Shown in pieces: positions 58,661-62,547 of a stretch of DNA of 64,000 nt (positions within the stretch are counted from its first letter, which is position 1; each line of letters starts with the position of its first letter). The position numbers and the translations under genes were made by a program. Source of the DNA: Pseudarthrobacter sp. AL07 (GTDB lineage Bacteria > Actinomycetota > Actinomycetes > Actinomycetales > Micrococcaceae); the NCBI RefSeq assembly GCF_029960665.1, contig NZ_JASBRB010000009.1:1-64000 (forward strand). Reading direction: 5' to 3'. The notes below the pieces were generated by a model. The model did no database searches and was not told the origin of the DNA. It was given only the letters and a program-made list of their open reading frames with translations.

Positions 58661-59887
58661 TCAGGACTGGCGCACCCGCAGCAGCTCCGGGGCCTCGTCC
58701 TCCGCCAGCAACCCGGAGGTGCCGCGCATCGTCACTTCCACGGCGTGGGCAACCACGGCCCCCAGCCCGCCGTCGTCGGGTCCTGTTTTTTCCATTGCTG
58801 CGTCCCGGACCCTGCGCTGTTCGTTTGAGCCGGTGCCGCGGGCAATGATGTCCTCAACACCCTGCCGGGCCAAGGCGAGCTCGTCCTGTTCGGCGAGGAC
58901 AGGCGCCAGATAATCCACTAAAGACCGTACGACGTCGACGGCGGGCGCCGGCCGGAAGGTCCCGAAATCCAGCAGCTCACCGCTCATGCCGCTGCTGCTC
59001 GCCTGCCACGCCGCCATCCGCAGCAGCACCGTGGGCACCGGGGCCGGATCCACGCCGTCGCGCCATTCGCGGCTGGCCGATTCGACCAGGGCCCGGACCA
59101 GCACCGCGATCAGGGCAGCATCCTCGGCACGGAGGCAGACATCGGCCACCCGGACCTCTACGGTGGGGTGGTTCCGGGACAGGCGCGCGTCGAAGTAAAT
59201 CATGCCTTCGTCCAACAGCACGCCGCTGTCCAGCAGGCGCGTTACCACCCGCCGATATGCGGAATATGTCGTGAAAATTGCCGAGGGGCCGGACGTGGGC
59301 CAGCGGTTCCAGGCCTGGGTGCGGTAACTCTCGAATCCCGTGCGCACCCCGTTCCAGAACGGCGAGTTGGCGCTCAGGGCTGTGAGGACAGCAAGCTTGT
59401 CCCGGATCCTGTCCAGCACCGCCACGCCCTCGTCCTTGGACTCGATGAAAGTGTGAACGTGGAAACCGCAGGTCAGCTGCTCCTGCGCAGTCAGACCGAA
59501 GCGTTCCAGCATCCGGGCATAGCGGGGGTCCGGGGTGGTGTGACTGGCGAGGCCAAACGGAGAGGTGGCCAGCGCGGCCACCCCTGCCCCGTTTTTGGCC
59601 GCCGCCTGGTCCGCCAGCAGCCGGCCGGCCCGGATCTGCGGCAGCAGTTCTGCGTACTCGAGGCAGGGCCGGGTCTGGGTCTCGATCTGCTCAAGCTTCA
59701 GCTCGGCAGTCAGGCCTGTCCCCTCGTCGTGCGCGGTTTGGTCCGTACCTGCCATCACATAGTGGCGCTCCGGGGCGTCGTCGGCAGCCATCCGGCGGCC
59801 GGACAGCATCGCATCCGCCAGGGCAAGCGGCTCCCCCGTGTCCGGATCAACGATCAGGAGCTCTTCCTCGACGCCGAATGTACGCAT
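58661..59887 (-). CDS. YbdK-type carboxylate-amine ligase (glutamate-cysteine ligase family)
   Basis: An ATP-grasp-like GCS2 enzyme of 408 residues from ATG 59887 ([20 protein letters not shown]). Signature words are [70 protein letters not shown] and [20 protein letters not shown]. It joins glutamate to an amine or cysteine with ATP. Actinobacteria use mycothiol, so the true substrate is uncertain. The ATG is close to a TATAAG sequence, and the transcript may have little or no leader. It is divergent from the PDDEXK-type gene. Confidence 0.85.
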
Positions 59888-59937
59888 GCTTATATTGTGC
59901 TGCAACGGGCAAGGACGCGGCAGCCCGCGGGGTCGGC

Positions 59938-60029
59938 GGATTCTGCTCAATCATCGGGCATGCACGAGCGGTGAGGCCCGGAATGCCGCGGCCTGAAGCC
60001 GGGCCAGCGCGAATGATGGTGCAGAATCC
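59938..60029 (+). repeat. 92-bp palindromic direct repeat, copy 1
   Basis: The ends GGATTCTGC and GCAGAATCC pair, and an inner GGCCCGG/CCGGGCC stem gives a folded element. Copy 2 at 60924-61015 differs at one base. The two copies, in the same orientation, flank one gene. Confidence 0.9.
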
Positions 60030-60097
60030 GACGCGGGATTTCCACATGGCAAGACTTGGCTCTCCAAACGGGGCCAGAATCGTGGCTAGCTCGATCC

Positions 60098-60922
60098 ATG
60101 GATCCCTTGGACTTTCTGAAATCCCTGGGCGGTGTGGCCCGGGTTGGCACGCTTCGCCGGGAAGGCCATTCCGAACGCGCCGTGCGGAGCCTGGCAACGG
60201 CCGGAGCCGTCCAACCGAGGAAGGGCGTCTGGGCGCTCCCTGGCGCCGACCCCGAATTCCTGCAGGCCATCGTCGACGATTCGCTGGTGACCTGCGCATC
60301 CAGCGCGTCCCGCTACGGGCTGTGGCTCAAAGACAAACCCGGTTGCCTACACTTGGCCAGCAAACACAGACGCGGCGGGCATTCGCCGAGGCACGGCCGT
60401 CTCCGTTTCGAACCTCACTACCGCCTGCCGATCGCGAGCCTTGAAGACACCGTTATACACGGTTTGACCTGCCTGAACGAAGTCGACGCCGTGGCGTTGG
60501 CACAGTCGGCCATGCAGCAACACGGGGTGACCCGGGCAATCCTCGAGTCCGAGCTGGCAGCCAAGTACTACGGAACAGCACGGAGTCGGCTGGCCAAAGC
60601 AGATGGGCTGTCTGAATCGGTGCCGGAAATCAGCGCACGCCTGCTGTTCGAATCGGCGGGGTTCCAGTTCCGCAGGCAGGTGCAGATCCCAGACGTCGGG
60701 CGCGTGGATATCCTGATCGAGGGCTGGCTCATTGTGGAAGTCAACGGTTACCAGTTCCACAGCTCGCGCGCGGCCTGGCGCAAGGACATGACCCGGTCCA
60801 ACACCGCGCAGACCCAGGGTTATGCAGTCCTGAGCTATGCTCCCGAACAGATCTGGAACAGCCCGGACACGGTCCTGCAGGAAATCCGGGCGGTTCTGGA
60901 GCGTGGCAGGCCTCACGGGTGA
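60098..60922 (+). CDS. Winged-helix (AbiEi-like) plus PDDEXK-type DUF559 protein
   Basis: A 274-residue protein from ATG 60098 (MDPLDFLKSLGGVARVGTLR). The N-terminus resembles the winged-helix antitoxin-type domain of AbiEi (SERAVRSLATAGAVQPRKGV, WALPGAD). A middle segment (ASSASRYGLWLKDKPGCLHL) follows. The C-terminus is a Vsr/DUF559-like nuclease fold: FRRQVQIPDVGRVDILIEGW, LIVEVNGYQFHSSRAAWRKD, MTRSNTAQTQGYAVLSYAPE. The Asp of VDILIE and E-V-N form the expected catalytic core, with Asn where EVD/EVK is common. Its role is unknown; such proteins are frequent in actinobacteria. Near-identical 92-bp repeats flank it. Confidence 0.8.
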   Translation: MDPLDFLKSLGGVARVGTLRREGHSERAVRSLATAGAVQPRKGVWALPGADPEFLQAIVDDSLVTCASSASRYGLWLKDKPGCLHLASKHRRGGHSPRHGRLRFEPHYRLPIASLEDTVIHGLTCLNEVDAVALAQSAMQQHGVTRAILESELAAKYYGTARSRLAKADGLSESVPEISARLLFESAGFQFRRQVQIPDVGRVDILIEGWLIVEVNGYQFHSSRAAWRKDMTRSNTAQTQGYAVLSYAPEQIWNSPDTVLQEIRAVLERGRPHG

Positions 60923-60923
60923 A

Positions 60924-61015
60924 GGATTCTGCTCAATCATCGGGTATGCACGAGCGGTGAGGCCCGGAATGCCGCGGCCTGAAGCCGGGCCAGCGCGAAT
61001 GATGGTGCAGAATCC
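60924..61015 (+). repeat. 92-bp palindromic direct repeat, copy 2
   Basis: Same as 59938-60029 except for one C to T change in the CGGGTATGC region. It begins one base after the stop of the PDDEXK-type gene and ends eight bases before the stop of the convergent murA-like gene. Its palindromic shape suits a bidirectional terminator. Confidence 0.9.
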
Positions 61016-61023
61016 GACGAAGC

Positions 61024-62547
61024 CTAGTCCTGGAAGTACTCCACCTTGGCGCCGATGGTGTTGAGCCGTTCCGCCAGGTCCTCGTAGCCGCGCTCGATCA
61101 CGTAGATGTTCCGCAGCTCCGACACTCCTCGTGCCGCGAGCATGGCCAGCAGCAGGCAGGCGGCGGGGCGGAGTGCCGGCGGGCAGCCCACCTCGGCGGC
61201 CCGCCACTTCGTGGGGCCATTGACGTAGATTCGGTGCGGGTCCAGCAGCTGCACCTGGGCGCCGAGCCGGTTGAGTTCGGTGAGATAGATGGCCCGGTTC
61301 TCGTAGACCCAGTCATGGATCATGGTCTGGCCATGGGCGTTGGAGGCAATGACCGCGAAGAACGGCAAGTTGTCGATGTTCAGGCCGGGGAACGGCATCG
61401 GGTGGATTTTGTCCTCCGGAGCCCGCAACTCGGACGGTTTGGTAGTCACATCCACCAGCCGGGTGCGGCCGTTGCGCGCCACGTACTCGCCCGAAATCTC
61501 CAGCTGCTGGCCCATCTGCTCCAGCGTGGCCAGCTCGATCTCCATGAACTCGATGGGGACGCGGCGGATGGTCACCTCTGAGTTGGTGACAATCCCTGCC
61601 GTGATGAGGCTCATGGCCTCGATGGGGTCCTCGGACGGGAAATATTCAATGTCGACGTCGATGAGCGGCTGCCCGGTGATCTTCAGCGTGGTGGTGCCCA
61701 CGCCGTCGATCTTCACGCCCAGCATCTCGAGGTAGAAGCAGAGGTCCTGGACCATGTAGTTGGGGCTGGCGTTGCGGATGACGGTGGTGCCGCGGCGGTG
61801 CGCCGCTGCCATGATTGCGTTCTCGGTGACGGTGTCTCCGCGCTCCGTCAGCACAAAGGAGCGGTCATGCGTGTCCGGCGGCGGAGCCTGCACGGCGTAG
61901 AAACCGGCCGTGGCTTCCACTGAGAGCCCGAACTGGCGCAGCGCCTGCATATGCGGCTCAACGGTGCGCGTGCCCAGATCGCACCCGCCCGCATACGGCA
62001 AGCGGTATTCCGCGGATTCGTCCAGGAGCGGGCCCAGGAGCATGATCACGCTGCGTGTGCGCCGCGCGGCGTCCACATCCATGGCGTCAAGGTCCAGGAC
62101 GGCCGGGCGGCGGAGCTGGAGATCGGTGTCGTTAAGCCACGTGCACTCGACGCCGATGCTGGTCAGGACCTCCACGATCCGGTTGACCTCTTCGATCCGG
62201 GCGAGGCGGCGCAGGACGGTGGTGCCGCGGTTGATCAGGCTGGCGCACAGCAGCGCCACACCGGCGTTTTTGCTGCTGTTGACATCCACCGCCCCGGAAA
62301 GCGTGCGGCCGCCTTCGATCCGCAGGTGCGTCATCTGCGGTTTGCCCATTTTGACGATGCTGCGGTCGAGAATGGCTTCGAGCCGCTGGATCATTTTCAG
62401 GCTCAGGTTCTGCTTGCCCTGCTCCATCCGGGCGACGGCGCTTTGGCTGGTTCCCAGCGCGCCCGCGAGCTGGCCCTGGGTCCAGCCTTTCTCGGTCCGG
62501 GCGTCCCTGAGTGTGGCGGCGATATGCTCGGCGGTTTCCTGAATCAT
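61024..62547 (-). CDS. murA: XRE helix-turn-helix fused to MurA-type enolpyruvyl transferase
   Basis: A 507-residue two-domain protein. Residues 8-62 form an XRE/Cro-type helix-turn-helix (RDARTEKGWTQGQLAGALGT; SQSAVARMEQGKQNLSLKMI). The rest is UDP-GlcNAc 1-carboxyvinyltransferase. It has SSKNAGVALLCASL (Lys-Asn of MurA), the catalytic Cys 189 in YAGGCDLGTRTVEPHM, NYMVQDLCFYLEMLGVKIDG and a PAACLLLAMLAARGVSEL end. MurA makes the first committed precursor of peptidoglycan. The normal enzyme lacks the N-terminal domain and is about 420-440 residues, so this is probably a paralogue. Whether both halves act together is unknown. Confidence 0.9.
   Translation of the reverse strand: MIQETAEHIAATLRDARTEKGWTQGQLAGALGTSQSAVARMEQGKQNLSLKMIQRLEAILDRSIVKMGKPQMTHLRIEGGRTLSGAVDVNSSKNAGVALLCASLINRGTTVLRRLARIEEVNRIVEVLTSIGVECTWLNDTDLQLRRPAVLDLDAMDVDAARRTRSVIMLLGPLLDESAEYRLPYAGGCDLGTRTVEPHMQALRQFGLSVEATAGFYAVQAPPPDTHDRSFVLTERGDTVTENAIMAAAHRRGTTVIRNASPNYMVQDLCFYLEMLGVKIDGVGTTTLKITGQPLIDVDIEYFPSEDPIEAMSLITAGIVTNSEVTIRRVPIEFMEIELATLEQMGQQLEISGEYVARNGRTRLVDVTTKPSELRAPEDKIHPMPFPGLNIDNLPFFAVIASNAHGQTMIHDWVYENRAIYLTELNRLGAQVQLLDPHRIYVNGPTKWRAAEVGCPPALRPAACLLLAMLAARGVSELRNIYVIERGYEDLAERLNTIGAKVEYFQD

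Follow-up and report, generated by a model that had tools for sequence, protein, structure and literature searches.

A DUF559 nuclease gene bracketed by matched palindromic elements: a probable REPtron-like system in Pseudarthrobacter and related Actinomycetes

In the 64,000-nucleotide stretch of Pseudarthrobacter sp. AL07 DNA analysed here (the window), a gene for a Vsr/EDxHD-type nuclease with an AbiEi-type domain lies between two nearly identical palindromic elements. Gene and elements probably form a REPtron-like system in which the nuclease acts on a cognate palindrome that is lineage-specific to the gene. The gene is bracketed by the element and the bracket is conserved among orthologues. 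The two palindromes of a pair change together, their dispersed copies are tied to the presence of the gene, empty states of the site exist, and phylogenies indicate co-transfer of gene and elements. From this pattern we infer an action of the nuclease on the palindrome, be it binding, cleavage or mobilisation.

The nuclease gene (60098-60922, forward strand, 274 aa) runs from an ATG at 60098, or alternatively a TTG at 60056, to a TGA at 60920-60922. The upstream element (59938-60029, forward strand) is REPIN-like, with two inverted arms of 16-17 nt and a variable interior. The downstream element (60924-61015, forward strand) is 91/92 identical to it, and the two 92-bp copies form a direct repeat with a register of 986 nt and a single mismatch. 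The original prediction had placed such an element on both sides of the gene in the same orientation, with the second copy starting one base past the stop codon; both statements are confirmed, the TGA ending at 60922 and the copy starting at 60924. The site is bordered on the left by a glutamate-cysteine ligase family gene (ybdK-like, 58661-59893, reverse strand), which served as the source of the host tree, and on the right by a murA-like EPSP synthase gene (61024-62547, reverse strand). The murA-like protein has an N-terminal helix-turn-helix (PF01381, E 1e-12). Of 2437 palindrome pairs spaced 500-1800 nt apart in the 64-kb window, four score high enough to pass the cut-off, each of them the 92-bp pair or an overlapping variant of it.

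The 92-bp element is an imperfect palindrome with 17-nt terminal arms that are 88% complementary and separated by 58 nt; members of the family end in GGATTCTGC/GCAGAATCC. As single-stranded DNA the upstream copy folds with -31.4 kcal/mol (z -4.2; 0/200 shuffles as good), and the other strand of the downstream copy gives a z of -2.6 (3/200 shuffles as good). Seven palindromes from seven loci, those of L014 and L025 being of the 92-bp type, fold with z values of -5.5 to -16.2. Alignment of the elements shows conserved terminal arms and variable interiors. At one arm position 34 sequences have a G-C pair and 27 a C-G pair, and double-change cells number 68 versus 26.5 in shuffles, with 0/500 shuffles as high. 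Counted per arm pair, double changes are not in excess (7 pairs versus 6.2 shuffled; 180/500 shuffles). The covariation set comprises 65 elements because six of the 71 (two each from L019 and L023, one each from L016 and L035) were left out of the alignment, A1, to ease its construction; L002 is excluded from the element collection as the same place as L038.

Strong hairpins near a stop codon would also be expected if the elements served as RNA hairpins or bidirectional terminators and so insulated the nuclease gene. This explanation is very improbable. RNAalifold predicts no common fold or consensus pairs on A1, a further copy lies 5′ of the gene, and copies are dispersed. A terminator or known RNA is rejected on the lack of any Rfam match at E <= 1 within 59400-61500 and of any T run, by eye, at the hairpin of the window copies.

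Searching 198 genomes of the host genus at the DNA level provided 30 orthologous loci (L001 and L003-L031), and the element is present at the gene in every one of them. Both sides carry it in 26/30 loci by HMM and in 28/30 by model or by eye. The two loci without a full bracket are a degraded gene (L009, truncated and with several broken arms) and a contig end (L017, where the contig stops within the gene and the other half, L051, carries the downstream copy). The second copy is degraded in L008 and shortened in L012. The upstream copy ends 18-56 nt ahead of the position matching TTG 60056 in 26 loci, and the downstream copy lies 1-48 nt past the stop codon in 23/26; the reading frame as walked enters or passes the downstream element in L004, L010 and L011. 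murA is found beside the gene in 29/30 loci (the L017 contig stops first) and ybdK in 27/30 (not in L021, L027 and L030). The orientation of the pair is not fixed: it is direct in most loci and was called inverted in L005, L016, L021, L027 and L028. Genes that are truncated, internally deleted or split (L009, L026, L017/L051) have flanking elements that remain whole or in part.

Bracketing persists among orthologues down to about 61% protein identity and is therefore of long standing rather than a recent accident. Within a locus the copies are 98.9% identical in the window and 96.7% in L025, but 47-74% in 20/26 loci, so that homogenisation of copies is sporadic and recent. The near identity of the window copies had been taken to suggest a recent event. 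A recent duplication of gene plus element is rejected on the presence of the same bracket in these distant orthologues; only the near identity of the copies themselves is recent, the two copies of the near relative L003 being 64% identical.

Copies of the element are not confined to the bracket. A strict element pattern was found in 46 of 196 genomes surveyed (G196 and G197, with L021 and L026, are outside the survey) and its reversed-pattern control in none. Genomes were counted as gene-bearing when they carry an orthologue of at least 56% identity, as do 29 of the 196 (G159 was counted from fragments). The pattern occurs in 29/29 gene-bearing genomes, with 214 hits (mean 7.4, range 1-19), and in 17/167 gene-less genomes, with 42 hits (mean 0.25; eight in G045 and five in G043). 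The association gives a Fisher p of 5e-23, uncorrected for host phylogeny. Since 26/29 gene-bearing genomes have at least three strict hits, these contain at least one copy outside the bracket. A covariance model, with up to 22 candidates scored per genome, detects elements in 59/196 genomes and agrees in kind. The REP-like association proposed at the outset thus finds support in an element family that is both dispersed and tied to the gene. Two outcomes would have spoken against it, elements abundant everywhere and genes without elements, and neither is seen, since gene-less genomes seldom have elements and 0/29 gene-bearing genomes lack them. In one genome three elements of the 92-bp family stand in tandem about 220 bp apart (G079:C1, 2132007-2132535), an arrangement like that of REPIN clusters.

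The same arrangement appears from genome comparison to be widespread in actinobacteria, with DUF559 paralogues bracketed by different palindrome pairs. The genome of the window has four PF04480 genes, two of which (L054 and L055) are bracketed by palindromes unrelated to the 92-bp family, and 100/101 genomes of the host genus carry one to seven DUF559 genes. Where loci have, as judged by eye, neighbouring sequence in common, the two flanking palindromes differ jointly from one lineage to the next. Further bracketing pairs occur in the order and class, for example at L104, L109, L124, L128 and L158. A pair score combining the palindrome quality of each side with the local identity between sides is at or above the cut-off of 40 for 22/72 DUF559 genes, the window gene included (6/28 in the host genus and 16/44 outside), and for 0/1500 random cross-pairings, which reach a maximum of 38. 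The other 50 genes fall below the cut-off, some of them with imperfect arms that match by eye; no candidate pair is present at L106, L117 and L146. A few passing genes are weak, as in L148, where a poor palindrome coincides with a local repeat. Of 74 loci entered, 72 were scored, L058 and L105 being without a suitable ORF. Omitted from the statistic were L059 and L061 (murA-type genes already represented by L007 and L013), L131-L143 and L151 (PF18741 matches within ORFs of great length), and, as contig ends, L065 and L066, the latter with a pair that matches by eye. Twelve of the 17 named loci, from Arthrobacter, Paenarthrobacter, Pseudarthrobacter and a Micrococcaceae MAG, pass, and in these every pair among the best three per locus brackets the DUF559 gene. 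Paenarthrobacter aurescens TC1 carries an orthologue of the window gene (L093).

A second genus, represented by three genomes, has its own element. The pattern CGAAAGCGCA...TGCGCTTTCG occurs 15, 16 and 14 times in these genomes and 0 times in the control, and the genes concerned have PF18741 matches below the model cut-off. Two interior subtypes exist, GTACG around the L158 gene and GCAC around its paralogue, the L222 gene, and the counterpart L223. In two of the genomes 29/31 classified copies fall in the two subtypes, and 22/24 copies not marked as bracketing have one or the other. The 14 copies of the third genome are outside this classification, and several have another interior.

Gene-less strains with one copy of the element had been proposed as a telling observation, and the near relatives L032 and L033 have exactly one at the same site, between murA and ybdK, with the nuclease gene absent. 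Twenty further gene-less genomes, taken from among the nearest plus a few others, were inspected. In L204 and L205 an apparent scar remains, made up of the first nine bases of the element, and L219 retains a right arm. A short gap of 59-81 nt is found at 6/20 sites (L215 has a short palindrome by eye). A different palindrome family with GCGCGAACTGGCAG arms occupies 8/20 (L202, L203, L206, L207, L208, L211, L217 and L221), and a third family 2/20. L218 has a 0.9-kb stretch (94-983) between murA and ybdK that contains neither a DUF559 match nor a recognised element. The scan for palindromes at empty sites compared arms at a fixed phase and is one that overlooks the window's own pair. The GCGCGAACTGGCAG-arm family brackets ybdK on both sides in L202, L207, L208 and L217, and no partner gene for it was found in the examined loci. 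At the solo-element site of contig C74, too, other palindrome families occupy the same place in relatives. One intergenic site (L229, L237, L241 and L246 versus L038) holds families that differ among genomes, GATTCTGC, CATCGATTGCTCC or one with an L055-like core, in the manner of a hot spot.

Gene-bearing and gene-less genomes are intermixed on the ybdK tree, which was built without L021, L027 and L030 (no ybdK match), and the gene must therefore have been lost or gained several times. In the tree of the nuclease gene (23 loci), L004, L006 and L007 group with the L001 clade (support 1.000). In the ybdK tree L001, L003, L005 and L008 form a group that excludes L004, L006 and L007 (support 1.000). 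The elements of L004, L006 and L007 are in 6/6 cases nearer to those of the gene clade than to those of the host clade. The conflict between the trees, together with the kinship of the elements, indicates that the unit travels with its elements and has moved between clades along with them, by homologous recombination or otherwise. Insertion with target duplication was not caught, and alignment of filled versus empty sites gave no clear junction.

The element could instead be a bystander, an ordinary REP or MITE that is moved by another enzyme and collects at intergenic sites, the gene being incidental. The same intergenic sites do carry other palindrome families in relatives, and one such family flanks ybdK on both sides. 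This is nevertheless quite unlikely, given the presence of elements in 29/29 gene-bearing versus 17/167 gene-less genomes, the occurrence in many genera of matched pairs that flank different DUF559 paralogues, the tracking of the clade of the gene rather than that of the host, and the failure of any other palindrome pair in the window to pass the cut-off.

The product of the gene matches PF04480 (DUF559, E 9e-9) in Pfam, and PF18741 under the cut-off of that model. PADLOC and NCBIfam give no match for it; PADLOC calls AbiEi for one paralogue of the second, independent genus. The structure model (mean pLDDT 84.8) has two halves. Residues 174-272 of the model resemble I-Bth0305I, the closest solved nuclease fold (Z 12.5 over 96 residues, 20% identity), and residues 172-272 resemble Vsr of E. 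coli (Z 11.4). Residues 1-169 have a modest predicted likeness to the AbiEi antitoxin (Z 6.9, rmsd 6.2), which is the top Foldseek match (E 9e-4). The product had been described from the start as AbiEi-like and PDDEXK nuclease-like, and the model supports the nuclease fold. Residues E177, D204, E214, H221 and D230 are invariant in an alignment of 16 sequences. A simple motif, E-x-D/N-G followed by H, Y or Q, is found in 31/44 loci examined (in L111 the match falls elsewhere in the protein, but the motif is also present), and the remaining 13 have close variants of the active-site motif by eye.

A nuclease domain nearest to I-Bth0305I, movement of the gene between clades at one conserved site and the existence of empty alleles could all be accommodated by homing, in which the nuclease cuts gene-less murA-ybdK alleles and repair then copies its gene into them, while the palindromes are just recognition sites or borders. 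A homing gene normally interrupts its own target, whereas here both palindromes are intact beside the gene, and the palindrome family is dispersed. Homing is given a low probability.

A TCCACAT motif (60041-60047, forward strand) lies 57 nt 5′ of the ATG and is DnaA-box-like or a putative promoter part. It is frequent 5′ of related genes: in the interval from -250 to +200 relative to the called start it is found, mostly at -57, in 20/24 murA-locus orthologues, 24/28 genes of the genus and 2/38 outside. The sequence TTNTCCACA, which we take to be the actinobacterial DnaA box, is found in 7/24, 16/28 and 9/38 of the same sets (background 0.02 per 450 nt). Expression of the nuclease gene may be tied to replication.

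The position of the upstream copy next to the TCCACAT motif and the AbiEi match of the N-terminal half would also suit an operator, with the AbiEi-like domain repressing its own gene through the palindromes, the dispersed copies acting as regulatory sites and the nuclease not acting on them. AbiEi antitoxins are described, in the available part of the source, as autoregulating through inverted-repeat binding (PMC7319586). An operator does not readily explain a second copy near the stop codon in 28/30 loci or a gene that travels with both copies, and with a length of about 55-100 bp, interiors that vary and hairpins of z down to -16 the elements are more than an ordinary operator. It is an unlikely explanation, if the least unlikely of the alternatives, and like homing and the bystander it is given lower weight than the REPtron-like reading.

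Under the REPtron-like reading, the AbiEi-like half would recognise the cognate palindrome as a single-stranded DNA hairpin, a cruciform or a duplex dyad, and the nuclease half would nick or cut it. Cutting would spread the short elements and, now and then, the complete element-gene-element unit. The gene could be deleted by recombination or slippage between its flanking copies, with one element or a scar left behind. A broader proposal, to which we give somewhat less than an even chance, is that such units form a class of selfish DNA new to bacteria. Nucleases of the Vsr fold, equipped with AbiEi-type recognition domains, would mobilise cognate hairpins together with the genes that encode them. 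The class would have converged on the HUH-based REPtrons, would comprise many parallel nuclease-palindrome specificities across Actinomycetes and might be timed to replication via the DnaA-box-like promoter motif. If this is true, a non-HUH nuclease with matched palindromes would account for repeat families of Actinomycetes, the large DUF559/AbiEi family, found in nearly every genome of the host genus, would gain a function, and many natural protein-palindrome pairs would be at hand for the study of DNA hairpin recognition.

Several known systems share features with the one described here. No literature joining DUF559 genes to palindromic repeats was found in a search that left subscription papers and preprints mostly outside. 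VsrA of Caulobacter contains a DUF559 domain and, in the part of the report available, is associated with a cytosine methyltransferase and has a proposed role in mismatch repair, with no repeats described there (PMC12907096). The nuclease fold is common to Vsr and the window protein; no methyltransferase is among the immediate neighbours of the window gene. I-Bth0305I is an EDxHD homing endonuclease. The window gene differs in having no intron or intein seen, an AbiEi-like N-terminal half and bracketing palindromes, and it is intergenic at the murA-ybdK site. AbiE, a type IV toxin-antitoxin system, has in AbiEi an antitoxin whose fold the N-terminal half modestly resembles. It differs in that the C-terminal half of the window protein is a nuclease and that an AbiEii nucleotidyltransferase toxin gene is absent beside the window gene, whose neighbours are the ybdK-like and murA-like genes; a toxin-antitoxin operon is rejected, as no toxin partner adjoins.

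The nearest parallel is RAYT/REP. In the available portions of three reports, the nuclease gene lies beside or between cognate palindromes with non-autonomous copies elsewhere, and a genome may have several co-evolving gene-repeat pairs (PMC3116915, PMC3733652, PMC8266576). A gene flanked by its repeat and a repeat that is dispersed and tied to the gene are common to both systems, as are, for REPINs so described, two inverted conserved arms. REPIN excisions have been seen by population sequencing (PMC3116915, in the part available); nothing comparable was seen for the window system. In these sources REP-type repeats go with a HUH enzyme, and CGTC repeats, a large group, are given without a dedicated enzyme in what is available of PMC3733652. 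RAYTs, as portrayed in these sources, are HUH/Y1 transposases; the window protein matches DUF559 and the Vsr-like PDDEXK fold and not an HUH/Y1 tyrosine transposase. The elements are about 55-100 bp, and in the 92-bp family the repeat does not end in a GTAG or CGTC tetranucleotide. The window system is placed outside RAYT/REP because both the enzyme fold and the GTAG tag differ, and outside AbiE because the partner gene is missing. It is a repeat with a putative dedicated nuclease and belongs neither to these nor to the other families compared here.
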